The notes under the pieces are model-generated. The model had not been told where the DNA came from. It saw nothing but the letters and a program-made list of their open reading frames with translations, and made no database searches. A stretch of DNA of 46,487 bases. It comes from Lachnospiraceae bacterium. Lineage in GTDB: Bacteria > Bacillota > Clostridia > Lachnospirales > Lachnospiraceae. The position numbers and the translations under genes were made by a program. Of this stretch, positions 27,035 to 38,910 are shown piece after piece (positions within the stretch are counted from its first letter, which is position 1; the number at the start of each line of letters is the position of its first letter). The DNA is taken from NCBI GenBank assembly GCA_017539565.1, contig JAFYCS010000083.1, positions 1-46,487 of the forward strand, given 5' to 3'.

Positions 27035-27724
27035 CTACAGTCTCATCCACCAGGCATCTACATCTGAATCCGGATCAGGCTCCGGAGTGTATTTTTTGAA
27101 GGCCTTCTCCAGAAGGAAAGAAGAAAGCAGCGCCCATAGTCCGGGTGCAAACATTATAGCAAGCGGCAGTCGTATAACCAGATACACCATAGCTACAAGT
27201 ATAACCAATACTGCTATACTGTAATAGAAGAAACGGATCATCATCACGAAAGACAGGAGCAGGATCTTTATCCCGTTCTGGTCAAAACGTGACAACAACG
27301 GAAATACATAGCAGAACAGCCCTCCCAGAAGGATAATAAATCCGGCTGATACAAAATACATTCCCAGAGCCACTCCCTTATTATCCACACTGGCGTTCTT
27401 AATGGCCTCAACGGAAATATCATTAAGCTGTATTCCCATCATCTGGAGAACCGTCCAGAGTCCCAACAGGCATACTACAAAAAATAATTCCAGAAATGTA
27501 GCCTTTAAAAAATTATCTTTCCACGCCTTAAAATATTCTTTAAAAAAGTATCCCCTGTCCATGCGAAGGCTCTTTGCGGTCGCATAATAAAGTGCGGTGG
27601 TTGAAGCGCCTATTGTTATCACGGGAAGAGAAGTAAAAAACCAGAGTATGCTTAAGATAACCAGCTCCCCAATCTTGGTAAGAGCTTTTCCTATCGCGCT
27701 GTCACCGGAAAACAAACCACGCAT
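27035..27724 (-). CDS. YesL-family (DUF624) membrane protein
   Basis: A 229-residue membrane protein with about five hydrophobic helices and the DUF624/YesL signature near the N-terminus ([20 protein letters not shown], then a [15 protein letters not shown] loop). YesL-type proteins accompany sugar ABC transporter operons in Firmicutes, but their biochemical role is not known. It follows the two sugar permeases, after a terminator, so it probably has an own weak promoter or is read through. AAAAGGA lies 9 bases before the ATG. The call is by recognition of the family pattern. Confidence 0.8.
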
Positions 27725-27757
27725 ATTTATAATTCCTTTTATATTTTACTTACTTTT

Positions 27758-27790
27758 AAAAAAAGAGAGGCAGAGAAAACCCTGCCTCTC
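27758..27790 (-). terminator. Terminator after the sugar ABC permease operon
   Basis: A 9-bp stem GAGAGGCAG/CTGCCTCTC with an eight-base loop is followed on the minus strand by seven T. It closes the binding protein-permease transcript and insulates the YesL-type gene. Confidence 0.9.
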
Positions 27791-27823
27791 CTTAATACAT
27801 TATACTGTTTGAAACCTTTTAAA

Positions 27824-28702
27824 TCAACCCTTCACGGAACCTGCTGCCAGACCGCCAACTATGAACTTCGACAGTACCAGGTAAACAACCACAACAGGGA
27901 AGATCGAGAATGCGATGGTCGCATAAACAACACCCATATCAAACTTAAGAAAGTCTGCACCACGCAGCTGGGCGATCAGGATAGGCAGTGTCTTCTTCTT
28001 ATCTGTGGAAAGTACCAGAGCGGGAGTAAAGTAATTATTCCAGCTTGATACGAAGGAGAAGATCGCCTGTACTGCCATAGCAGGTACCATCAGAGGTAAC
28101 ACTATGGTGTTGAATATCCTTATCTCACCGGCACCGTCGATACGTGCTGCTTCCAGCAGTTCCAGAGGAAGTGTACTCTCCATGTACTGCTTCATATAGA
28201 AGAATACGATCGGCGCGGCTATCGAAGGCACGATCAGAGGTATAAAGTTATCCATCAGGTTCATCTTATCGATCAGCTGCAGGAAACCAAGAGCGGTAAC
28301 CTGTGTGGGGATCATCATGATTGCCAGTATCACAGTGAATATTGCCTTCTTAAGCTTGAAATCATATGCATGGATGGCATATGCAGTCATGCAGGAGAAG
28401 TATACACACAGTGCAGCGGTACATACAGAAACGATGACACTGTTTAACATACCGTTAAGTATGGGCTGTGTACCGGTCAGCGCGTTATGCAGGTTTTCGA
28501 TCAGGTGTGTACTGGGGAAAGGCGTAAAACCTTTGGTCAGCTCACCCTTTGATCTGGTAGCATTTATTATCAGGATGTAGAACCATATCAGGCAGAAGAA
28601 GCAGGTGATGCTGAGAACAACATATGCTACTGCACGTCTGCTCTTTACACTGCCTTTTACTTTTCCTTCAACCATATCTATCTTGATCTTATTGTCAGCC
28701 AT
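27824..28702 (-). CDS. Sugar ABC transporter permease, MalG type
   Basis: A 292-residue membrane protein with six predicted helices and the cytoplasmic EAA loop EAARIDGAGEIRIF near residue 190, which contacts the shared ATPase. It pairs with the permease encoded just upstream (14-base gap). Belongs to the MalG/AraQ-like class of carbohydrate uptake (CUT1) systems. No ATPase gene is in this operon, so a housekeeping MsmX-like ATPase from elsewhere is probably used. The substrate is unknown; neighbouring hexonate genes hint at an aldose. Confidence 0.9.
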   Translation of the reverse strand: MADNKIKIDMVEGKVKGSVKSRRAVAYVVLSITCFFCLIWFYILIINATRSKGELTKGFTPFPSTHLIENLHNALTGTQPILNGMLNSVIVSVCTAALCVYFSCMTAYAIHAYDFKLKKAIFTVILAIMMIPTQVTALGFLQLIDKMNLMDNFIPLIVPSIAAPIVFFYMKQYMESTLPLELLEAARIDGAGEIRIFNTIVLPLMVPAMAVQAIFSFVSSWNNYFTPALVLSTDKKKTLPILIAQLRGADFLKFDMGVVYATIAFSIFPVVVVYLVLSKFIVGGLAAGSVKG

Positions 28703-28716
28703 TTCATCACCCTCCT

Positions 28717-29634
28717 TTATGCCTTGCCGTATTTATCTTCATTACCGCTGAACTTGAACACGATTATGCTCAGCACGCCGGTGATAAAGAAGAGGATCAC
28801 GGATAATGCACCACCCATACCATAGTTCTTACTGTACAGATGATTGTTCAGACACATGATAAGTGTAGTTGCGCTGTTGTTCGGCGAACCTTTACCATCG
28901 GTAAGGATCTGGGGAACATCGAACATCTGCAGACCACCTATCAATGATGTTACCATAACGTAGATCAATATGGGTTTAAGTATAGGAAGCGTTATCTTCC
29001 AGAATACCTGGTTAGCTGTAGCTCCGTCTACTTCTGCAGCCTCAAAGAGGGCTGTATCGATACCCATCATACCTGCCAGCAGCAGTATGGTAGTATTACC
29101 GAACCACATCAGGCAGTTCATTAAAGCTACCAGAGCACGTACGCTTCCGGTGTGAGCCATGAAGTCGTATGCCTCTTTGAGGATTCCGACCTTCATCAGT
29201 ATATCATTCACAGGGCCTACAGTAGAGAACAATGTGAAGAATAACATGGAGAATGCCGATGCCATTATCAGGTTCGGCAGATATATAACTGTCTTGAAAA
29301 ATCTCTGGCATTTAAGTCGCAGGCTGGGATCCGAAAACCATGCTGCGAACAGAAGAGAGATTATAATCTGCGGTATAAAGCCCATGATCCACATGATCAT
29401 GGTGTTTTTAAAGTACTTTAATATGTTTCCTTCCGAAAACAGTTTAATATAATTCTTAAAACCTACCCAATTGGGGCCTATTATCGTAAGTCCGTCACGA
29501 TAATGCTCAAAGAAACTGTTCTTGATCGTATTGATCAGGGGGATCAACTGAAATACAACAAATACTACAGCAAAAGGTATAAGAAAGATATAACCCCATT
29601 TATTATAAGAAACAACGGATTTCTTTTTGTTCAT
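28717..29634 (-). CDS. Sugar ABC transporter permease, MalF/UgpA type
   Basis: A 305-residue membrane protein with six helices and the EAA loop EAAEVDGATANQVF near residue 205, typical of the first permease of CUT1 uptake systems. The N-terminus is short, without the MalF periplasmic insertion. It follows the solute-binding protein gene after a 131-base gap that contains a terminator, so it is translated from read-through transcript. The next gene is the partner permease. Confidence 0.9.
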   Translation of the reverse strand: MNKKKSVVSYNKWGYIFLIPFAVVFVVFQLIPLINTIKNSFFEHYRDGLTIIGPNWVGFKNYIKLFSEGNILKYFKNTMIMWIMGFIPQIIISLLFAAWFSDPSLRLKCQRFFKTVIYLPNLIMASAFSMLFFTLFSTVGPVNDILMKVGILKEAYDFMAHTGSVRALVALMNCLMWFGNTTILLLAGMMGIDTALFEAAEVDGATANQVFWKITLPILKPILIYVMVTSLIGGLQMFDVPQILTDGKGSPNNSATTLIMCLNNHLYSKNYGMGGALSVILFFITGVLSIIVFKFSGNEDKYGKA

Positions 29635-29688
29635 GCTATTTTTCCCTCCGGATTACCTTCTTTTTTCTTAAAATCCTTTTTTCCGACT

Positions 29689-29720
29689 AAAAACGTGCCT
29701 GCCCTTTCGGACAGGCACGT
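29689..29720 (-). terminator. Terminator between solute-binding protein and permease genes
   Basis: Stem ACGTGCCTG/CAGGCACGT with a short GC extension, followed by five T on the minus strand. Such partial terminators make binding protein far more abundant than permeases. Confidence 0.8.
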
Positions 29721-29765
29721 CCTCATACTTATTCAGTCTGCTTATCTTTCCGCAAGATCCGTTAC

Positions 29766-31211
29766 TTATTTGCTAAGTGCGGGATACTTTGTGGTGATCG
29801 CATCATAGAACTTGTTGAGTGCAGTGTCATAATCTGCATTGCCATCGAAGTAATCCTTCATAGCGTTCTGGAACTCTTCGTTGCAACCCTGATCATATGC
29901 GCTTATCTTGTCAAGAGCGATGTTCTTAGCACCTGCTGCGAACATACCCAGAGGATTCTGGCCGCCGAATACTGCGCTGGTGTAATCGCTTGCTGCAAGC
30001 TCTTCCATAGCGGGCTGGTTGTTTACGAAGTCATCATCCTGCTTAACGATATCGATCATGATGTCCTTATCAACGGTAAGCTTTCTCATGATATCAGCAA
30101 CGGTAGCCTTGTTGTCGGTGCCGTTAGCTGCGCAGATCCAGGTACCGCCCCAGAAGAAGCCCTGAGGTCCTTCGGTTGCGCCCCAGCCACCCTGGTTAGC
30201 GATAGATCCGTCGGTATCAGCTGCCATACAGAAGTTGATCAGCCAAGCGGGTCCAAAGTAGCAGAATACCTTACCATCGGGATAGAAGCCTGATGACCAA
30301 GCATCGCCCCAGAGGTTCTCAGTAGACTTGATCTGTCCTGCATCATACATTTCCTTGGAATCGTCAACCCATCTCTTGATGTTGTCGTCGATCTGAACCT
30401 TCTTGTCAGCGCTTACCCAAGGCACGCTCACGTTGTTGGAGAATGTACGATAGGTATCGTTAACGGTAGCGGTCATGTAGTAACCAGCTGCCTTCATATC
30501 AGCTGCGGTAGCCTTGTAGGTATCCCAATCCTTAACAGCTGCCTGTACATCAGCGGGCTCGTCAGAACCAATAACGGCCTTAGCAGCCTCACGGTTGTAG
30601 ATAAGAACACCGGGGCAGCCCTGCCATGAAAGGCCCTTAAGCTTTCCATCGCTGCTGGTCATAACGTCCTGGGTGTACTTGTACTGATTGCTCAGCTCGG
30701 AAAGTGAAATACCCAGATCGGTAACAGGCAGAGTGTAATCGGTATCTACATACTTAAGTGCGTAGTCAGCCTCAACCAGGAACAGGTCGATCTTGTCATC
30801 AGCTGCTGCGCTGTCCTGCTTAAGCAGGGTCTCATCCAGATTGTTCTGATATGCATTGTCATCTGAAGGAGTGATGTTCCATACAACATCGATATCACCG
30901 ATCTTACCGTGGGTAGCATCTACCTCGGTGTATCCGGGATAATGATCTGTAAGACGGCTCTTGAACTCCTCATTCCAGCAGTAGATGTTCAGAACGCTTC
31001 CTTCAACTTCACTTGAGATATCCTCTGCCTCAACAGTAGTGTCAAGCTCGGGAGCCTTGGTAGGCTCAGCCTCAGTAGTAGTTGAACCGCTGCCACCATC
31101 AGTATCAGTAGTAGTAGTGGTGCTTGCGCCTGTGTTACCGCCGTTGCAGCCTGCCAGTGTGCCTGCTGCCATGATCATTGCCATGCTTAATGCCAATAAT
31201 CTCTTTTTCAT
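29766..31211 (-). CDS. Extracellular sugar-binding lipoprotein of an ABC importer (family 1)
   Basis: A 481-residue surface lipoprotein: MKKRLLALSMAMIM with lipobox LAGC (Cys22), a Thr/Ser/Gly-rich linker to about 75, and a family 1 solute-binding fold that starts with LNIYCWNEEFKSRL. It captures a carbohydrate and hands it to the two permeases downstream. The protein is longer than the family average mainly because of the linker. It has its own promoter and a cre/LacI-like site upstream, and is followed by a partial terminator. The ligand is unknown; the L-galactose idea from the adjacent operon is inference. Confidence 0.92.
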   Translation of the reverse strand: MKKRLLALSMAMIMAAGTLAGCNGGNTGASTTTTTDTDGGSGSTTTEAEPTKAPELDTTVEAEDISSEVEGSVLNIYCWNEEFKSRLTDHYPGYTEVDATHGKIGDIDVVWNITPSDDNAYQNNLDETLLKQDSAAADDKIDLFLVEADYALKYVDTDYTLPVTDLGISLSELSNQYKYTQDVMTSSDGKLKGLSWQGCPGVLIYNREAAKAVIGSDEPADVQAAVKDWDTYKATAADMKAAGYYMTATVNDTYRTFSNNVSVPWVSADKKVQIDDNIKRWVDDSKEMYDAGQIKSTENLWGDAWSSGFYPDGKVFCYFGPAWLINFCMAADTDGSIANQGGWGATEGPQGFFWGGTWICAANGTDNKATVADIMRKLTVDKDIMIDIVKQDDDFVNNQPAMEELAASDYTSAVFGGQNPLGMFAAGAKNIALDKISAYDQGCNEEFQNAMKDYFDGNADYDTALNKFYDAITTKYPALSK

Positions 31212-31503: not shown

Positions 31504-31941
31504 TTACAAAACACAGCCTTTCTGCAGTATAACGTTGGCATATTGACTGGTTTCCGAGGTCGCTATAACGGCATATGCCTTCTTTGCTTCTTCATAAAAA
31601 GCGAAGCGCTCGAGAGTCTGTATCACATCCGTCCCGCGGGGTTCTTCCTTCGCTATCATCTTCTCATATATCTTCCATATGGAGATATCCGCATTGTCTC
31701 CGGGCACCCGTTCCATAAGGCTGACCGGCTTATCCACATACTGGTCCAGCGGAAACACTTCCAGGACAGCCTTTAAGATCTCCGGCACTCCGTGGCCGTC
31801 CATACGCAGTACTATGGCGTCCTTACCCATAGTTTCTGCCGGAAAATTACCGTCTGCTATAACTATCGTATCGCCATGTCCCATCTCACATAAAACCTTT
31901 AACAGGTCAGGTGAAAGCATAGGTGAGATTCCTTTTAACAT
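31504..31941 (-). CDS. RbsD/FucU-family sugar mutarotase
   Basis: A 145-residue cytosolic protein of the RbsD/FucU family, which interconverts alpha and beta anomers of sugars (fucose, ribose, galactose-like aldoses). The signature LKGISPMLSPDLLKVLCEMGHGD and IADGNFPAE near the N-terminus is clear and is closer to FucU (L-fucose mutarotase) than to RbsD, with the active-site His in MGHGD. It is the last gene of the six-gene hexonate operon and 58 bases separate it from the amidohydrolase. A mutarotase implies that the operon begins with an anomeric free aldose, not a uronic acid. Confidence 0.88.
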   Translation of the reverse strand: MLKGISPMLSPDLLKVLCEMGHGDTIVIADGNFPAETMGKDAIVLRMDGHGVPEILKAVLEVFPLDQYVDKPVSLMERVPGDNADISIWKIYEKMIAKEEPRGTDVIQTLERFAFYEEAKKAYAVIATSETSQYANVILQKGCVL

Positions 31942-31969
31942 TATTGTTCCTCCTTAGATTTAACATAAG

Positions 31970-31993
31970 ATCCTTCGCTGCGCTCAGGATGAC
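31970..31993. repeat. REP-like short palindrome in the gap before the mutarotase gene
   Basis: TCCTTCGCTGCGCTCAGGA with flanking bases (ATCCT...AGGAT) resembles a short extragenic palindrome seen in many genomes, from memory. It lies in the 58-base gap between the amidohydrolase and mutarotase genes. Confidence 0.35.
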
Positions 31994-31999
31994 ATGAAT

Positions 32000-32881
32000 T
32001 CACAGCATATTTTCCCGTTCGGGGAGCGGCTTAAGGCCTTCAAGACCGTAGAACTTTACGGCGTTTCCGCCAAGGAAGGCATCCTTTTCGGCTTCCGTCA
32101 TCTTAGGCGTATCGGCGATAAAGCGTACCGCCGAAGTGTAGGTGATATCAGTCATGGTACGGGGATAATCGCTGCCCCACATCAGTTTTTCCATCCCGCA
32201 GATATCCCTTGCTTCCAGAATGGCGTCTATAGCCGACGGATAAGGATAAAACTCCTTATGAAACAGCCATGTCAGGCCTCCGCTTTCTATATATACATTG
32301 GGATTCTTCGCCAGAGCGATCTGTTTCTGCCAGCCTTTAGTAGTCACCATTCCAAAATGTCCGATCGTTATCTTAAGCTCCGGACAGGCATCGATCAGAT
32401 ACTGCATATCCTCAGTCTGAAGGTCTCCGTCTGCCAGGTCAAGACCTATAAAAACCCCGGCCTCTTCAGCCTTTCTGAATACCGGGAGTAGCTTCTTAAG
32501 ATCCTGACATTTAAGCCTTCCGGCACATATCTTGATCCCGTCAAAGCCCTCCAGCCTGTAATCCTCCCTTTCTTCATAAAGAGAGCATACCCTGAAACGC
32601 TCCGGATATTTGTGTCTTACCTTTAACAGATACTCATCCTGGTTTCCGTCCATGTATTCCTGGGTCACAACGCATGCATTTACCTGTGCATAATCCATAT
32701 TGGCCAGAAGACGCTCCGCATTGTTAACATTATCGTCCATATAAGGCGGCATCATCTGGTGCGGTCTGCCCAGGAAAGTTGAAACCCCTCCTCCCAGGCC
32801 ATATACGGGAAGGCCGTCTATACAGCCGTTCTGCTTTTCCCACAGATGTACATGGGCATCGATGATGATCCTCTCTCTCAT
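32000..32881 (-). CDS. Amidohydrolase-2 family protein, probable sugar lactonase
   Basis: A 293-residue TIM-barrel metal hydrolase with the HxH metal motif IDAHVHLW at the start, a histidine in ITIGHFGM in the middle and the final Asp in WGSDYPRTMTD. This order fits the amidohydrolase-2 group that contains sugar lactonases (L-rhamnono- and L-fucono-lactonases). The start ATG at 32881 overlaps the stop of the dehydratase (ATGA) and begins at the metal motif; a longer frame inside the dehydratase gene is unlikely. In context it would open L-galactono-lactone to L-galactonate. A decarboxylase is an alternative for this superfamily. Confidence 0.8.
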   Translation of the reverse strand: MRERIIIDAHVHLWEKQNGCIDGLPVYGLGGGVSTFLGRPHQMMPPYMDDNVNNAERLLANMDYAQVNACVVTQEYMDGNQDEYLLKVRHKYPERFRVCSLYEEREDYRLEGFDGIKICAGRLKCQDLKKLLPVFRKAEEAGVFIGLDLADGDLQTEDMQYLIDACPELKITIGHFGMVTTKGWQKQIALAKNPNVYIESGGLTWLFHKEFYPYPSAIDAILEARDICGMEKLMWGSDYPRTMTDITYTSAVRFIADTPKMTEAEKDAFLGGNAVKFYGLEGLKPLPERENML

Positions 32882-34266
32882 AATGTCACCCCGTCTTTGA
32901 ATATGGCTATCTCGCGGTATCCGTTCTCTTCGTTCTTTGTCAGGGTTCCTTCCGCAACCTGTATACAATAGTCGATAAAATTCTCTTTAAGTACTATTCC
33001 GTCGATCATGGGACCGGCGTCAAAATCTATCCAGTTTTTCTTTCTGTAGCTGATACCGCAGTTGGTCCCCACTTTTATTGTCGGGACCGGCGCTCCCAGG
33101 GGAGTGCCGCGTCCCGTTGAAAACAGTATCATGTGACAGCCTGCAGCAGTCAGGTTAGTTACGGCAACCATATCATTTCCGGGACCGTTTAAGAGATTAA
33201 GCCCGCTCTTTACCACTATATCCCCGTAATCCAGCACATCCGTCACCTCTGAAGTCCCGCCCTTCTGGGTACAGCCCAGAGACTTCTCTTCAAGGGTGGT
33301 GATCCCGCCTTCTTTGTTACCGGGGGAAGGATTTTCATATATCACCTGGTCGTGTCTGGTGAAATAATCCTTAAAATCATTGATCAGCGCAACCGTTTTA
33401 TCAAACACTTCACGGTCCGCGCAGCGGTTCATGAGCAGATGCTCCGCCCCGAACATCTCAGGAACTTCCGTAAGTACGGTGCTTCCGCCGTTTGCGCACA
33501 GCCAGTCGGAAAACTGTCCTATCAGGGGATTGGCGGTTATCCCTGAAAATCCGTCGGATCCGCCGCATTTTAAGCCGACTTTAAGCTTTGATACCGGGAC
33601 CGGGACCCTCTGATCCCCGGCAGCGATCTCCTGCAGCTCCCGGATCAGGCTGACTCCCTCTTTGATCTCATCCTCACAGGACTGGGCGTTTAAAAACCTG
33701 ACGCGCTCCTCATCCACCGGCCCCAGCACTTTCTTAAACTCCTCAATATTGTTATTCTCACATCCAAGCCCCAGGACCAGAACTCCTCCGGCATTCGGAT
33801 GTTTCACCAGTCCCTTAAGTATCTTCTGCGTTGTGGCATGATCGCCACCCAGCTGTGAACAGCCGTAGGGATGGGGAAAAGCCAGAGCCCCGGTAATACC
33901 GGCCAGTTTTTCCGCAAGCTTATTGACGCAGCCTACGGTGTTTATGATCCAGATGTCATTCCTTACGCCTATTTCACCGTTCTTACGGACATATGCCATA
34001 ATAGAGCGTACGTATTCATTTTCAGGCTTCATTTCCCCGGCTTTTTCAATGGGTGTATATTTATACTCCAGCTTATCCTTAAGCTTCGTCGCCATATTAT
34101 GGGTATGAACATGCTCCCCTGCAGCGATATCCGCTGTGGCATATCCGATGGGAAAGCCGTATTTTATCACATCGGATCCTGCGGGTATATCACATATCGC
34201 CTTCTTATGCCCTGTATCGGTATCTACCGCCACATTATCTGCCTGATGGATCTGCAATAAACTCAT
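32878..34266 (-). CDS. uxaA: Altronate dehydratase (UxaA family)
   Basis: UxaA removes water from D-altronate to give 2-keto-3-deoxygluconate. The 462-residue protein has the small N-terminal SAF domain (1-80, including HTHNMATKL near 65-75) and the large C-terminal part with NTVGCVNK, HPYGCSQLGGDH and LKCGGSDGFSGITANP, whose cysteines fit the metal/iron-dependent UxaA-GarD family. The overlap ATGA with uxaB and the amidohydrolase shows tight translational coupling. GarD-type galactarate dehydratase is the main alternative, but the neighbouring tagaturonate reductase favours altronate. Confidence 0.92.
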   Translation of the reverse strand: MSLLQIHQADNVAVDTDTGHKKAICDIPAGSDVIKYGFPIGYATADIAAGEHVHTHNMATKLKDKLEYKYTPIEKAGEMKPENEYVRSIMAYVRKNGEIGVRNDIWIINTVGCVNKLAEKLAGITGALAFPHPYGCSQLGGDHATTQKILKGLVKHPNAGGVLVLGLGCENNNIEEFKKVLGPVDEERVRFLNAQSCEDEIKEGVSLIRELQEIAAGDQRVPVPVSKLKVGLKCGGSDGFSGITANPLIGQFSDWLCANGGSTVLTEVPEMFGAEHLLMNRCADREVFDKTVALINDFKDYFTRHDQVIYENPSPGNKEGGITTLEEKSLGCTQKGGTSEVTDVLDYGDIVVKSGLNLLNGPGNDMVAVTNLTAAGCHMILFSTGRGTPLGAPVPTIKVGTNCGISYRKKNWIDFDAGPMIDGIVLKENFIDYCIQVAEGTLTKNEENGYREIAIFKDGVTL

Positions 34267-35594
34267 CCCAGTACCTCTTCGTAAGCGGCAGCCATGCCCT
34301 TATTCTCAATAATATCGTAATAGTACTTCACTTTATCTGTCATAAAGGAAATGTCCGATCCCCAGTATTCCTGCTTAGCCAGGATGTCTTCTACGGATGC
34401 CGTCTTCATGAAAGCCATGATATCCTCACCGTCGTCTGTCTCATCGGTACGGTAGAAAGCGATCAGTGCGGCAAGCGAAAATGTAAGGCAGGGCGGAAGC
34501 TCATGATGCTGTTCATTATACTCAAGAATTGTCGGGAGCACGCGTGCCTTGAACTTGCTGACCGAATTAAGCGCGATGCTCAGGAGCCTGTGCTTAACAA
34601 AGGGATTGGCAAAGCGCTCCAAAACCGCATTTCCGAAGGGGATATCTTCTTCTTCATGACCCAGGGTAGGTATGATCTCCTCAAATACGGCCTTTTTAAG
34701 GAAACGGCTGACGATCGGATCATCCAGGCATTCCTTTACCGTGGAAAGGCCGTAAAGTCTTGCTGCCAGCACCATCGAGGTATGACCGCCGTTTAAAATG
34801 CGGACCTTACGCTTCTTATAAGGCTTGACATCATCGGTCCAGATAACATTGATACCTGCTTTCTGCAGAGGGAAAATATCTTCAAAATGGCCTTCGATAA
34901 CCCAGAGATGGAATATCTCCGCAGTGTTCATAAGCTTATCTTCCGCACCCAGACGCTTTGTGAAGCTCTCCGCGTCATCCTTCGGGTAGCCCGTGCAGAT
35001 ACGGTCCACAAGGGTATTGCAGAAATGATTTTCCGTCCTGATCCACTCTTTAAAAGCATCAGGCAGATTCCAGAGCTCCGCATACTTAAGAACACAGGAA
35101 AGAAGCTCCTTGCCGTTATTATCTATCAGCTCACAGGATAGTATCACAAAGCCCGGTAATCCTGTCTGGTAACGCTCCCACAACAGCGCCGTAAGCTTGG
35201 CCGGGAAGGACTTGGGCGGCGTATCATTAAGACTCTCCGTCCCTAAATATTCGATACCTGCCTCTGTGGTATTGGATATGATGATGTGCATATCGGGGTT
35301 ATATGCCAGATCAAGGTATCCGGCATAATCCGTATAAGGATCCACACCGCGGGATATCGACTTAACCTCTATGCACTCATCTACAACATTGCCGTTGTCA
35401 ATGCCACGCAGAAACTGATGATACACTCCCTGCTGTTCGTTGATCACCGATATAAGTCCCTTAGGGATAGGCTGGACTACAACTGCTTTACCGTCGTAAA
35501 GCCCCTGCTCATTCATTTTATGAATAAAAACATCTACAAAACTCCTGAGGAACCCGCCCTCTCCGAACTGTATTATACGCTCTTTATACTCCAT
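34263..35594 (-). CDS. uxaB: Tagaturonate reductase (mannitol dehydrogenase family)
   Basis: UxaB reduces D-tagaturonate to D-altronate with NADH. The 443-residue protein starts with the NAD fold IIQFGEGGFLRSFVDVFI, then ISNTTEAGIEY and the C-terminal catalytic half (LNGGHTSMVLAARLYG, with the conserved Lys/Asn region). Length and sequence fit tagaturonate reductase rather than mannitol or fructuronate reductases. AAGGAG precedes the ATG at eight bases. No UxaC isomerase lies beside it, so tagaturonate must come from another source, here possibly the LgoD-like dehydrogenase directly upstream. Confidence 0.9.
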   Translation of the reverse strand: MEYKERIIQFGEGGFLRSFVDVFIHKMNEQGLYDGKAVVVQPIPKGLISVINEQQGVYHQFLRGIDNGNVVDECIEVKSISRGVDPYTDYAGYLDLAYNPDMHIIISNTTEAGIEYLGTESLNDTPPKSFPAKLTALLWERYQTGLPGFVILSCELIDNNGKELLSCVLKYAELWNLPDAFKEWIRTENHFCNTLVDRICTGYPKDDAESFTKRLGAEDKLMNTAEIFHLWVIEGHFEDIFPLQKAGINVIWTDDVKPYKKRKVRILNGGHTSMVLAARLYGLSTVKECLDDPIVSRFLKKAVFEEIIPTLGHEEEDIPFGNAVLERFANPFVKHRLLSIALNSVSKFKARVLPTILEYNEQHHELPPCLTFSLAALIAFYRTDETDDGEDIMAFMKTASVEDILAKQEYWGSDISFMTDKVKYYYDIIENKGMAAAYEEVLG

Positions 35595-35609
35595 ACCCCT
35601 GTCTCCTTC

Positions 35610-36641
35610 TTATATCTCTTCCGGTGTTCCTATCTCTATCAGTACCTTTGCCAGGCTTCCGTCATTTGCTGCCAGAGCCTTGAATGCTTCATCAGCACGT
35701 GCGATGGGATAAACATCGCTCACCATATCCAGCACGTTTACCCTGCCTGAGGCTATCAGATCTATAACCGCCGCAAAATCCGTGGGATAGGAATTCCTGC
35801 TGCCGAATACGTTCAGCTCCTTCTTTATCAGTAACGAATGCAGGAAAGTCGTCTCCTTCTTGCCGTTACCTATAAGTATGATATTTGCTGCAAACGCCGC
35901 ACAGTCAATGCAGCTGAGGAAGGTAACGGACTGTCCGCAGGCTTCCACACATACATCAAAGCCGTTTCCTCCCGTGATCTTCTTAGTCTCCTCAATGATA
36001 TCCTGATCCTTTGAATTGATCACTCCGTCCGCACCAAAATGCAGCGCCTTCTCAAGCCTGCCCTGTAAGATATCCGCTACATATACCTTAGCACCCTGCG
36101 CTTTTGCTGCGATAAGTGCAAACAAACCGATAGGACCTGCACCTACCACCAGGACATTATCCCCTTCCTTTACCGGTGCACGGTGAAGGGCATGGTAACT
36201 GATGGTAAAAGGCTCCACCAGAGCCAGTTCCTTTGCTGAAAGACCTTTGCCTTCGTATATCCTCTCTACCGGCATGCTTATATATTCACGGAAAGCACCG
36301 TCCCTCTGTACGCCCATGGTCTGGTTATCCGTACAGCAGTTAACGAACCCGCGCTTACATGAATAACAGCCTCCGCAGTTAAAATAAGGATTGGCGGTAA
36401 TGATATCCCCGGGCTTAAGTCCCTTATCATTTTCCGGGATCGATATTATCTGTGCGCTGAATTCGTGACCCGGTATACGCGGATACGTAGTAAAAGGCTG
36501 GTTTCCGGTATAGCTTGCCACATCGGCTCCGCAGATACCTCCGTAGAGTACTTTAAGCAGTGCCTCGCCCTCCTTCGGTACCGGTTTTTCCGTATCCGTT
36601 ACCGCTATCTGATAAGGTTCGTTGATCAATACTGTCTTCAT
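35610..36641 (-). CDS. Zinc-dependent MDR dehydrogenase, LgoD-like (predicted L-galactonate 5-dehydrogenase)
   Basis: A 343-residue medium-chain dehydrogenase. The catalytic zinc site is in GGICGADVASYTGNQPF and PRIPGHEF, the structural zinc cysteines in CGGCYSCKRGFVNCC, and the NAD fold in VVGAGPIGLF. The motifs GNQPF followed by YPR and GHE, GVQRDGAF and GSRNSYPTDF parallel E. coli LgoD (YjjN), which oxidises L-galactonate to D-tagaturonate; that comparison is from memory. In this operon it would supply the substrate of UxaB. A different polyol or hexonate substrate remains possible. It overlaps the upstream MDR gene by four bases. Confidence 0.7.
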   Translation of the reverse strand: MKTVLINEPYQIAVTDTEKPVPKEGEALLKVLYGGICGADVASYTGNQPFTTYPRIPGHEFSAQIISIPENDKGLKPGDIITANPYFNCGGCYSCKRGFVNCCTDNQTMGVQRDGAFREYISMPVERIYEGKGLSAKELALVEPFTISYHALHRAPVKEGDNVLVVGAGPIGLFALIAAKAQGAKVYVADILQGRLEKALHFGADGVINSKDQDIIEETKKITGGNGFDVCVEACGQSVTFLSCIDCAAFAANIILIGNGKKETTFLHSLLIKKELNVFGSRNSYPTDFAAVIDLIASGRVNVLDMVSDVYPIARADEAFKALAANDGSLAKVLIEIGTPEEI

Positions 36642-37849
36642 TTCTCACCCTCCAAATCTACGTACTTCTTATTCCATACCACTGCCGTCTTCATCGGCGC
36701 ACTCTTGCTGTATATCTTATTCTTATAAGCCCCTATGGGATCGCTTATGAATTCGTCCTTATCGATCAGCTCTACTATCTCATCGTAACTGCTTTCCGCC
36801 AGCATCTCTATCGCTTTCTCCATATGATCCTGACGGAAATTTATGGATCCCATGATCAGATGGTTTTCGAATCCGAAAGGCATTGTGTCGAAAGTGATCT
36901 GAGGTCCCAGGGAAAAACTGTTGTATATGCCGTTGCAGCCCAGCACCTTATGCTCAAAGGCGATGCGGTGTTCCACATTGCTGCCGCTGACGCCTATAAA
37001 GAGGGTTGCACGTCCGCCCATTTTATCAATAATGGCTTTTCCCAGTTCCTCTTCACTCTCATAAGTATTCTGCAGATATTCCGCAGCTGTCTGTTTAAGA
37101 GCATATTTAACTTTGGGTGAATCGGCGCTGCTTCTGGCCACAAAGAGTATCTTTGCATCTTTGTGGCTGCGCTGTATAAGGTCTCCGATGAACATGCCCG
37201 TGGTCCCCAGTCCGAAGATCACCGTTCGTTCAAAGAGCTCTTCCTTTGCTATCTTTCTGGCAGTATGCTCATCACATTTGCATTTGCGCATCGTGCGTCT
37301 GAAGTTGTGTGCACTTCCCAGATCCTCCATACGCTCCAGCTGGAACAGCATACAGGCAAAAGGATCAGGAAATACCATCTTCTTTGCAAACTTAAGATCC
37401 AGCTTACCGTCCTTCACATAACCCTCAGGTATCTTAAGCAGCATGTCCGGATGAAAGTACTGCTTATCGCAGAACAATCCGTCTGCCTTATCACAGCCAT
37501 ACTCAAAATAGCTTTCATCCTCCGTATAACGCGTGGGATCCCAGCTGTCCCCGCCGCGGATGAGCACTATGGCAAAGCGGTTTTCCGAAGGTACCCATAC
37601 GATGCCTTCATGTCCGTTTATCAGGCGGTTTTTGCCTTCCGGGAATTTGGGTCCAAGCAAACCCTTACTTCCCATATTCATCAGCTCGTTATCGGTCCCG
37701 CAAAAGCCCACCATTACAGGCTCGCATAAAACAGCGTCCTTAGGCTCCTCCCCCCGCAGTCTCTGTCTGCGGACATTTTCTATCTCCACATCCCCGTATA
37801 CCAGCGGCCTGTCGGGATCATTCTGAAAATAAGTTCCTTTTACCGTCAT
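36638..37849 (-). CDS. MDR dehydrogenase, glucose-1-dehydrogenase-like
   Basis: A roughly 403-residue medium-chain dehydrogenase. It keeps the catalytic GFCGTD and GHEG motifs and the nucleotide fold FGLGTTGMFIGD but has a long insertion, and the later segment is unlike alcohol dehydrogenases. The general plan resembles archaeal and bacterial glucose 1-dehydrogenases (GlcDH). In the operon it could oxidise the C1 of an aldose to a lactone. The start at 37849 has AAAGGAG eleven bases upstream; a start at 37894 with a shorter gap is possible and would add 15 lysine-rich residues. First gene of the operon; divergent from the AraC regulator. Confidence 0.65.
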   Translation of the reverse strand: MTVKGTYFQNDPDRPLVYGDVEIENVRRQRLRGEEPKDAVLCEPVMVGFCGTDNELMNMGSKGLLGPKFPEGKNRLINGHEGIVWVPSENRFAIVLIRGGDSWDPTRYTEDESYFEYGCDKADGLFCDKQYFHPDMLLKIPEGYVKDGKLDLKFAKKMVFPDPFACMLFQLERMEDLGSAHNFRRTMRKCKCDEHTARKIAKEELFERTVIFGLGTTGMFIGDLIQRSHKDAKILFVARSSADSPKVKYALKQTAAEYLQNTYESEEELGKAIIDKMGGRATLFIGVSGSNVEHRIAFEHKVLGCNGIYNSFSLGPQITFDTMPFGFENHLIMGSINFRQDHMEKAIEMLAESSYDEIVELIDKDEFISDPIGAYKNKIYSKSAPMKTAVVWNKKYVDLEGEK

Positions 37850-37930: not shown

Positions 37931-37962
37931 ATGACGTCTTTTACAATAATATGTCGCCTTTT
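37931..37962. promoter_or_regulatory. Direct repeats, candidate AraC-family operator
   Basis: ATGACGTCTTTT (37931-37942) and ATGTCGCCTTTT (37951-37962) agree in 10 of 12 bases and start exactly 20 bases apart, two turns of the helix, as AraC-type regulators often prefer. They lie between the dehydrogenase gene and the araC-type promoter. Confidence 0.5.
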
Positions 37963-37975
37963 CGCAGATTCCTCC

Positions 37976-38043: not shown

Positions 38044-38910
38044 ATGAAATACCGCAATCTTGATCTGACTTTTACAATGGAAGATGTGTCTTTTACAGTA
38101 CTGAGTATCAGCAACGAACTGATGCTGCAGCCTATCCCCAGACACAGCCACAGCCGCAACAGTTATGAGCTTCACTATATTTCCTACGGCTACGGCACCC
38201 TTATCGCGGATGATGAGCGTTACGATGTTACGCCCGGGACCTTCTTCATGACAGGCCCACAGGTATTTCACGAACAGATCTCCGATCCCGATGAACCCAT
38301 GCGCGAATACGGCGTATATCTGAAGGTGAGCCTGCCCCGCCGCGGCAGCGCATGTGAGGCGCTCCGCCTGTTTTTGGGAAAGCCGTTTTTTATAGGCCAG
38401 GCGGATATCGAAGTCTATGAACTGATGAAAAAACTCATCAACGAGCTTGAGCAGCCTTCGGAAAACGACCGTCTTATGCTGTCGGCCATACTTCAGCAGC
38501 TGATAGTCCAGATATCACGCCAGTACAGAAAAAGCGGCCAGAATGAAGACGATAAGGAACAGTCTGCCGGCGAGCGCATTCCCGAGGACCGGACTTACCT
38601 TACCATCGAGGAAGCGTTTTTATATAATTACCGCGATCTTACGCTGGAAGGGCTCTCCTCCCTGCTTAACCTCAGTAAACGCCAGACAGAACGGCTGCTG
38701 AAAAAGCATTACAACAAGACTTTCCAGCAAAAGAAAAAAGAGGCCCGCATGTCAGCCGCCTGTATCTTACTGCAGGACGGCAGCAAAAGCGTAGCCTCCG
38801 TAGCCGAAGAACTCGGTTATTCATCACCCGAGCATTTCGCTCATGCTTTCAAAAACTATTATAATATAACGCCTTCAGCGTATTCCGCATCAGATTCCGG
38901 AAGGCTTTAA
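38044..38910 (+). CDS. AraC-family transcriptional regulator with cupin domain
   Basis: A 288-residue regulator: an N-terminal cupin domain (about 25-120, HSHSRNSYELHYISYG with the cupin histidines) that binds a small ligand, a linker, and a C-terminal pair of AraC helix-turn-helix motifs (about 190-285), the second ending in SVAEELGYSSPEHFAHAF and TPSAY. It is transcribed away from the hexonate operon, so it is the likely regulator of that operon and of itself. The ligand should be the sugar or a pathway intermediate. AGGGG lies 8 bases before the ATG. Confidence 0.9.
   Translation: MKYRNLDLTFTMEDVSFTVLSISNELMLQPIPRHSHSRNSYELHYISYGYGTLIADDERYDVTPGTFFMTGPQVFHEQISDPDEPMREYGVYLKVSLPRRGSACEALRLFLGKPFFIGQADIEVYELMKKLINELEQPSENDRLMLSAILQQLIVQISRQYRKSGQNEDDKEQSAGERIPEDRTYLTIEEAFLYNYRDLTLEGLSSLLNLSKRQTERLLKKHYNKTFQQKKKEARMSAACILLQDGSKSVASVAEELGYSSPEHFAHAFKNYYNITPSAYSASDSGRL

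Follow-up and report, generated by a model that had tools for sequence, protein, structure and literature searches.

Candidate operon for an inducible L-galactose route in Lachnospiraceae, with an apparently optional UxaB-UxaA module

Six tightly packed genes in the genome of a Lachnospiraceae bacterium raise the question of which sugar they serve. The window, meaning the whole stretch of DNA analyzed, is the 46,487-nucleotide contig JAFYCS010000083.1 (GenBank assembly GCA_017539565.1). On its minus strand, from 37849 to 31504, lie genes for a 403-residue medium-chain dehydrogenase/reductase (MDR), a second, LgoD-like MDR of 343 residues, tagaturonate reductase (UxaB), altronate dehydratase (UxaA), an amidohydrolase, and a FucU-type mutarotase; three junctions are 4-base overlaps, and the remaining gaps are 15 and 58 bases. 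A sequence-only reading had proposed that these genes, with a divergent AraC-family regulator, encode a complete oxidative route from L-galactose to 2-keto-3-deoxygluconate (KDG). All six genes and the regulator were found in the claimed order, and the arrangement is not a product of chance, since the same gene set was found again in dozens of genomes. The operon is probably an inducible L-galactose route to KDG; its layout, protein families, conservation, and distribution rest on sequence, from which every substrate, reaction, and regulatory step is inferred.

The main evidence lies in where UxaB and UxaA are encoded. A contig scan gave 300 relatives, and locus counts cover the best 80 of these plus the window (81 loci): 42 contain uxaB (the six-gene form, in some cases truncated at a contig end), 25 have four genes, 5 lack LgoD, and 9 were left unclassified. 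The window genome and those of 50 of the 80 relatives formed a test set of 51 (21 four-gene, 25 six-gene including the window, and 5 of an iron type described below). Canonical UxaB was encoded elsewhere at near full length in 17 of the 21 four-gene genomes, as a contig-end fragment in 2, and not at all in 2, versus 1 of the 25 six-gene genomes and all 5 iron-type genomes; the other UxaB matches in six-gene genomes, 24 to 30% identical, were taken as UxuB-like without a family check. Fisher's test, with the two fragment genomes dropped and uncorrected for kinship, gave a p value of 4e-9. Canonical UxaA was likewise encoded elsewhere in 18 four-gene genomes (1 as a contig-end fragment), 1 six-gene genome, and all 5 iron-type genomes. 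UxaB is available in 49 of the 51 genomes (two fragments counted) and UxaA in 48, and UxaC is encoded in 19 four-gene, 24 six-gene, and 5 iron-type genomes. Canonical uxaB is on the same contig as uxaC in 13 of the 17 genomes (the exceptions are G201, G211, G215, and G216), and uxaC, uxaB, and uxaA adjoin in all five four-gene genomes examined. The nearest relative, L009 (MDR 93% identical), has a four-gene operon plus a uxaC-uxaB-uxaA cluster. The uxaB-uxaA pair appears to be an optional module, with the four-gene core present where canonical uxaB-uxaA exists and uxaBA within the operon otherwise.

From this pattern the four-gene core appears to need UxaB and UxaA, which implies D-tagaturonate and hence L-galactose. 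To our knowledge, and by established stereochemistry, D-tagaturonate arises by C5 oxidation only from L-galactonate or D-altronate; L-galactonate is favored as the source because the operon encodes a FucU mutarotase and a putative C1 dehydrogenase. FucU would interconvert the anomers of L-galactose, the 403-residue MDR would oxidize C1 to give L-galactonolactone, and the amidohydrolase would open the lactone to L-galactonate. The LgoD-like MDR would oxidize C5 of L-galactonate to give D-tagaturonate, which UxaB would reduce to D-altronate and UxaA would dehydrate to KDG. This order, as the sequence-only reading had it, gives every gene a job, and the UxaB/UxaA pattern supports its D-tagaturonate junction, but the pathway is already known. 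L-galactose is preferred to L-fucose on pathway logic, as none of the sequence features found decides between them.

The two enzymes after the junction match their families well. The operon UxaB scores 531 bits against an NCBIfam tagaturonate reductase cut-off of 359 and is 42% identical to Escherichia coli UxaB and 27% to UxuB; it is the sole such copy found in the window genome, where the other match, 27% identical, was taken as UxuB-like, a call that did not include a family check. In G150 (L151:5089-9388), a UxaB 65% like that of the operon sits with uxaC and uxaA, a grouping that supports the UxaB function. UxaA contains the Pfam altronate/galactarate dehydratase domains, is 53% identical to E. 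coli UxaA and 31% to GarD, and is likewise the sole copy found. Among nine E. coli MDRs, LgoD is nearest to the 343-residue MDR (36%, 212 bits), followed by RspB (176 bits), ahead of the seven others.

The remaining enzymes are assigned more remotely. The 403-residue MDR has only a weak Pfam match to Glu_dehyd_C (20 bits versus a cut-off of 34.9) and three weak matches in the PDB, all of them glucose dehydrogenases; C50, H80, and E81, which we take to be zinc ligands, are invariant in an alignment of 26 sequences. Its start (ATG at 37849) agrees with homologue starts and has AAGGAG upstream. We propose that it is the L-galactose C1 dehydrogenase. The amidohydrolase had been read as of lactonase type; the superfamily was right (Pfam Amidohydro_2, 106.9 bits), but the protein is far below the NCBIfam L-fucono-1,5-lactonase cut-off (30.6 versus 400 bits). 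A sequence-only profile search of the PDB returned the amidohydrolase 4i6k and the putative 2-pyrone-4,6-dicarboxylic acid hydrolase 2ffi, and an AlphaFold2 model had a mean pLDDT of 91.5; searches and model started at 32887, two residues upstream of the 293-residue ATG start. We propose an L-galactonolactonase function. The FucU-type protein narrowly misses the NCBIfam L-fucose mutarotase cut-off (137.4 versus 141 bits), scores 48.7 bits against the D-ribose pyranase model (cut-off, 93), and is 45% identical to E. coli FucU; its best PDB match is 3mvk, protein FucU.

The later steps were sought in the rest of the window genome (3.37 Mb, 120 contigs). Both a KDG kinase-like protein and an aldolase are encoded on another contig, in the row PfkB kinase, eda, lacI, uxaC (L008). 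The KDPG (2-keto-3-deoxy-6-phosphogluconate) aldolase Eda scores above its cut-off; the PfkB kinase scores below the KDG kinase model cut-offs, and its role is our inference. The steps after KDG are probably available, as is an isomerase for galacturonate or glucuronate, and the kinase and aldolase would complete the route.

Several observations weigh against this reading. A pairs test corrected for kinship points the same way as the Fisher test (six pairs, averaging 4.5 in favor and 0.3 against) but is too small for significance (p about 0.125). G232 carries both UxaB/UxaA sets, and in G218 (taken as G006, 67% complete) and G219 the four-gene core is present and UxaB and UxaA were not found; assembly gaps or transitional states may or may not account for these three genomes. 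Nearly all tested genomes are metagenome assemblies, in which absence means absence from the assembled sequence. The 403-residue MDR has no characterized close relative. LgoD was nearest to the 343-residue MDR, as predicted, but the LgoD-like enzymes adjoin E. coli LgoD in the tree on long branches with weak support (93/35). Seven of 200 family genomes encode a UxaB of the operon type (62 to 72%) but not the MDR, so this enzyme is not exclusive to the proposed pathway. The absence of UxaC had been offered as an argument; the gene is indeed not in the operon, but its presence elsewhere in the genome, beside the kinase, aldolase, and LacI regulator, removes any weight its absence could carry by itself. 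The ABC importer, presumably of the CUT1 type, lies downstream on the same strand as predicted (Table 1), but a search of the 80 related loci (E 1e-10, flanks at most 10 kb) gave no match to its binding protein; the importer is not conserved with the operon, and we reject it as a member of the system. Glycosidase genes at the operon would also fit L-fucose: GH29 within or adjacent to it in L032, L074, and L079, and GH95 adjacent to it in L041, L042, and L050.

That L-fucose (6-deoxy-L-galactose) is the true substrate, alone or with L-galactose, is unlikely. The mutarotase, MDR, and lactonase would then yield L-fuconate, followed by a UxaA-type dehydratase and later splitting. Mutarotase and lactonase genes are described as marking the non-phosphorylating L-fucose route too (PMC11199699), and the Campylobacter jejuni locus as holding a dehydratase, a hydrolase, and a mutarotase (PMC6946681). 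PMC6336799 mentions a UxaA-family enzyme slightly active on L-fuconate, others assigned to L-fuconate, and an archaeal MDR, SSO1300, acting on L-fucose. The substrate L-fucose would, however, leave LgoD and UxaB without a role and the either/or pattern unexplained, and neither a dehydratase nor an aldolase is part of the four-gene form. Family scans found no aldolase gene in the window operon.

Glycosidases and isomerases were examined for the source of the sugar. GH95 enzymes are described as liberating L-fucose or L-galactose (PMC4491172, PMC10154630). GH95 occurs in 47 of the 51 operon genomes versus 50 of 197 window-family genomes without the operon, two sets that differ in taxonomic spread; GH29 occurs in 34 of the 51 (33 above cut-off), with no control draw, and a search of the window genome gave none, which counts against L-fucose. 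The single GH95 of the window genome (L155:8098-10407; G000:C6; 769 residues) is on a contig other than the operon's. Its nearest structure is 7kmq, described as a Xanthomonas fucosidase (PMC8245568), followed by 2rdy, 8zbv, and the L-galactosidase 4ufc. A Thr/His residue was considered as a test between the two sugars: 47 operon-genome genes comprised 40 with Thr, 3 with His, and 4 without the motif, and 41 controls comprised 28, 10, and 3, respectively, both sets having been picked from longer lists with most weak, short, or second matches left out. The three operon-adjacent GH95 genes all have His, and two of them are among the three His genes of the main set. The test was dropped because a Thr-bearing GH95 is described as specific for L-fucose, with the preference of its T395H mutant unchanged (PMC8245568). 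The GH95 evidence cannot choose between L-galactose and L-fucose. PF02952 matches occur in 47 of the 51 genomes and exceed 150 bits in only 3; a typical fucose isomerase may thus be missing from many, as an oxidative L-fucose route would allow. In the window genome the match is a 496-residue protein with a fucose-isomerase C-terminal domain (L129:6453-7943; G000:C16), whose sole NCBIfam match is sulfoquinovose isomerase (68.9 of 700 bits); matches with frame lengths near 496 residues are common in operon genomes. With so poor an identity for that protein, fucose isomerase decides nothing as a substrate test. Several operon loci have neighboring GH31, GH43, and GH2 genes. L-galactose is described as a side-chain sugar of corn-fiber glucuronoarabinoxylan, and GH31, GH43, and GH95 enzymes as having been applied to this xylan (PMC4491172, PMC7176698).

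It is very improbable that the operon mainly serves D-galacturonate, with UxaC encoded elsewhere and the remaining four genes co-regulated to handle a different pectin sugar. UxaC is present in 48 of the 51 genomes, and the operon UxaB and UxaA are the sole copies found in 24 of the 25 six-gene genomes, as that proposal would predict. GH28, a marker of pectin use, occurs in 11 of the 21 four-gene genomes and 4 of the 5 iron-type genomes but in only 2 of the 25 six-gene genomes, the window genome not being one of these two, so six-gene genomes appear to resemble galacturonate users less. Its absence from 23 of the 25 is a better argument than the absence of UxaC from the operon. The four-gene form also occurs without uxaBA, UxaC can serve D-glucuronate as well (E. 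coli annotation), and uxaC is on a separate contig, not with uxaB and uxaA as in an ordinary D-galacturonate operon. The operator-like repeat described below has its one perfect genome match at the operon and none on the uxaC contig. Least credible is a direct dehydration of L-galactonate by the operon UxaA to 2-keto-3-deoxy-L-galactonate, with LgoD and UxaB serving another purpose: Acidovorax ACAV_RS08155, of the UxaA family, is said to be an L-galactonate dehydratase on its authors' unpublished data (PMC6336799), but in 24 of the 25 six-gene genomes no UxaA other than the operon enzyme was found, this enzyme is 53% identical to E. coli UxaA and travels with UxaB, and LgoD is kept in the four-gene form without UxaA.

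Among 200 genomes sampled from the family of the window, 3 carry the 403-residue MDR, the window genome included; a fourth match (34% over about 100 residues) was left out of this count. By their labels, Lachnospiraceae and other Clostridia make up most of the best 80 relatives, and a rumen or gut origin is common; two are labeled Treponema and one Chloroflexi. The best MDR tree requires at least 7 changes between the six-gene and four-gene forms. In a UxaB tree of the window and 28 of the 41 uxaB-bearing relatives, 28 of the 29 operon UxaBs placed fall in one clade, which fits repeated loss of uxaBA. The loci labeled Treponema, L037 and L065, have the operon with uxaB-uxaA at its end, which suggests transfer between phyla, although bin error may also explain it. 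Five iron-type loci (L077, L080, L081, L084, and L088) form the most distant group and have no recognized LgoD beside the MDR; all five genomes encode canonical UxaB. An Fe-ADH_2 gene directly follows the MDR, at LgoD's place, in L077 (3712-5076), L081, and L088 (11223-12587) and follows the lactonase in L080 and L084; the Pfam assignment was checked in L077 and L088, the others being of the same gene family. This iron-containing alcohol dehydrogenase is possibly a non-homologous L-galactonate dehydrogenase. A gene for a 457-residue PALP (pyridoxal-phosphate) enzyme lies directly upstream of the MDR in L012 (2181-3554; Pfam checked in this locus only), L013, L015 (where it is cut short), L016, L018, and L020.

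The control region offers a candidate site for the regulator. Of the 80 related loci, 31 have an AraC relative on the opposite strand ahead of the MDR gene; several loci are truncated on that side. Two direct repeats, 20 bases apart, are alignable upstream of the MDR in seven of eight loci compared and were not found in L009 in that comparison. An exact search with one repeat found 15 of 248 loci, representing 12 of the 80 relatives and including the four-gene L017 and L032; a stricter pattern with both repeats found L011 and L029 only. The first window repeat, TGCGAAAAGGCGACAT, is the only perfect pattern match in the genome, where one-mismatch matches to the pattern numbered two, versus nine for a reversed control pattern. 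The second, TTGTAAAAGACGTCAT, has three mismatches and alone is no better than chance. The repeats are plausibly an AraC site, through which the regulator would perhaps switch the operon on. Within 27035-31211 the importer genes are followed by a gene for a protein that is weakly MusI-like (70 bits; cut-off, 160), and the importer binding protein had no Pfam or NCBIfam match. A plasmid search with the operon region gave no match. Coordinates are given in Table 1.

Table 1. Features of the operon and its surroundings in the window
Feature	Position	Strand	Basis
MDR, 403 residues, remotely glucose-dehydrogenase-like, proposed L-galactose 1-dehydrogenase	36638..37849	-	family and PDB profile matches, conserved residues
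Zinc MDR, 343 residues, proposed L-galactonate 5-dehydrogenase (LgoD-like)	35610..36641	-	comparison with nine E. coli MDRs
UxaB, tagaturonate reductase, 443 residues	34263..35594	-	NCBIfam score, E. coli comparison, tree
UxaA, altronate dehydratase, 462 residues	32878..34266	-	Pfam domains, E. coli comparison
Amidohydro_2 protein, 293 residues, proposed L-galactonolactonase	32000..32881	-	Pfam, PDB profile matches, AlphaFold2 model
FucU-type mutarotase, 145 residues	31504..31941	-	NCBIfam, E. coli comparison, PDB match
AraC-family regulator, divergent	38044..38910	+	open reading frame position, family match
Possible AraC operator, a pair of direct repeats (TGCGAAAAGGCGACAT, TTGTAAAAGACGTCAT) 20 bases apart	37931..37966	-	alignment and pattern searches
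ABC importer (binding protein, two permeases)	27824..31211	-	family matches; 292 bases downstream of operon

Parts of the proposed route have precedents. Bacteroides (Phocaeicola) vulgatus Bvu0219-0222 reportedly convert L-galactose to D-tagaturonate by a C1 dehydrogenase, a lactonase, and an L-galactonate dehydrogenase (Hobbs 2014), as proposed here. The L-galactose dehydrogenases of Arabidopsis and B. vulgatus are aldo-keto reductases, unlike the MDR of the operon, and we know of no mutarotase and UxaB-UxaA in one operon in B. vulgatus. E. coli lgoD-lgoT follows the same LgoD, UxaB, UxaA logic and supplies the nearest E. coli proteins for three operon enzymes, but entry is at L-galactonate, the three genes lgoD, uxaB, and uxaA are at separate places, and no sugar dehydrogenase, lactonase, or mutarotase gene is beside lgoD. 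Enzymes and knockouts demonstrate that L-galactose use in Luteolibacter proceeds by way of L-galactonate, D-tagaturonate, D-altronate, and KDG (PMC12632266). Its strain LG18 cluster lguABCDEF, which serves both L-glucose and L-galactose, shares with the operon a C1 dehydrogenase, an L-galactonate dehydrogenase, a tagaturonate reductase, an altronate dehydratase, a divergent activator, and the D-tagaturonate junction. It differs in that LguA groups with the Arabidopsis and B. vulgatus enzymes and is not called an MDR, the cluster includes no named lactonase, an annotated rbsD is beside lguG outside it, an aldolase is inside it, and the phylum is Verrucomicrobiota (PMC12632266). The same paper cites B. 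vulgatus for L-galactose and E. coli for L-galactonate, and its orthologue search found no organism with the L-galactose set alone; with its different first enzyme, the Clostridia operon could escape such a search. The non-phosphorylating L-fucose pathway (FucM, FucA, FucB, FucC; Campylobacter fuc locus) is described with a mutarotase, 1-dehydrogenase, lactonase, and sometimes a UxaA-type dehydratase, but the accounts drawn on name no LgoD or UxaB and give C. jejuni FucX as a FabG homologue. Among the literature matches listed, no paper on a Clostridia L-galactose operon was found.

The pathway being known, what is new is the glucose-dehydrogenase-like MDR in place of the aldo-keto reductase, the mutarotase and lactonase-type genes within the operon, and the spread in gut and rumen Clostridia. 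We regard as evenly balanced the broader proposal that this MDR represents a new L-galactose (or L-galactose/L-fucose) 1-dehydrogenase family, non-orthologous to the known enzyme. With such a family, L-galactose released by GH95 from grass xylans or other plant glycans would support many Clostridia of the rumen and gut and perhaps, through transfer, some Treponema; UxaB-UxaA would be a plug-in gained or lost with the host's galacturonate cluster. If true, the operon would provide a dehydrogenase family to which a substrate can be assigned and a genomic marker of L-galactose use. It would also be a clear case of a pathway that carries its downstream enzymes mainly where the host has none of its own.

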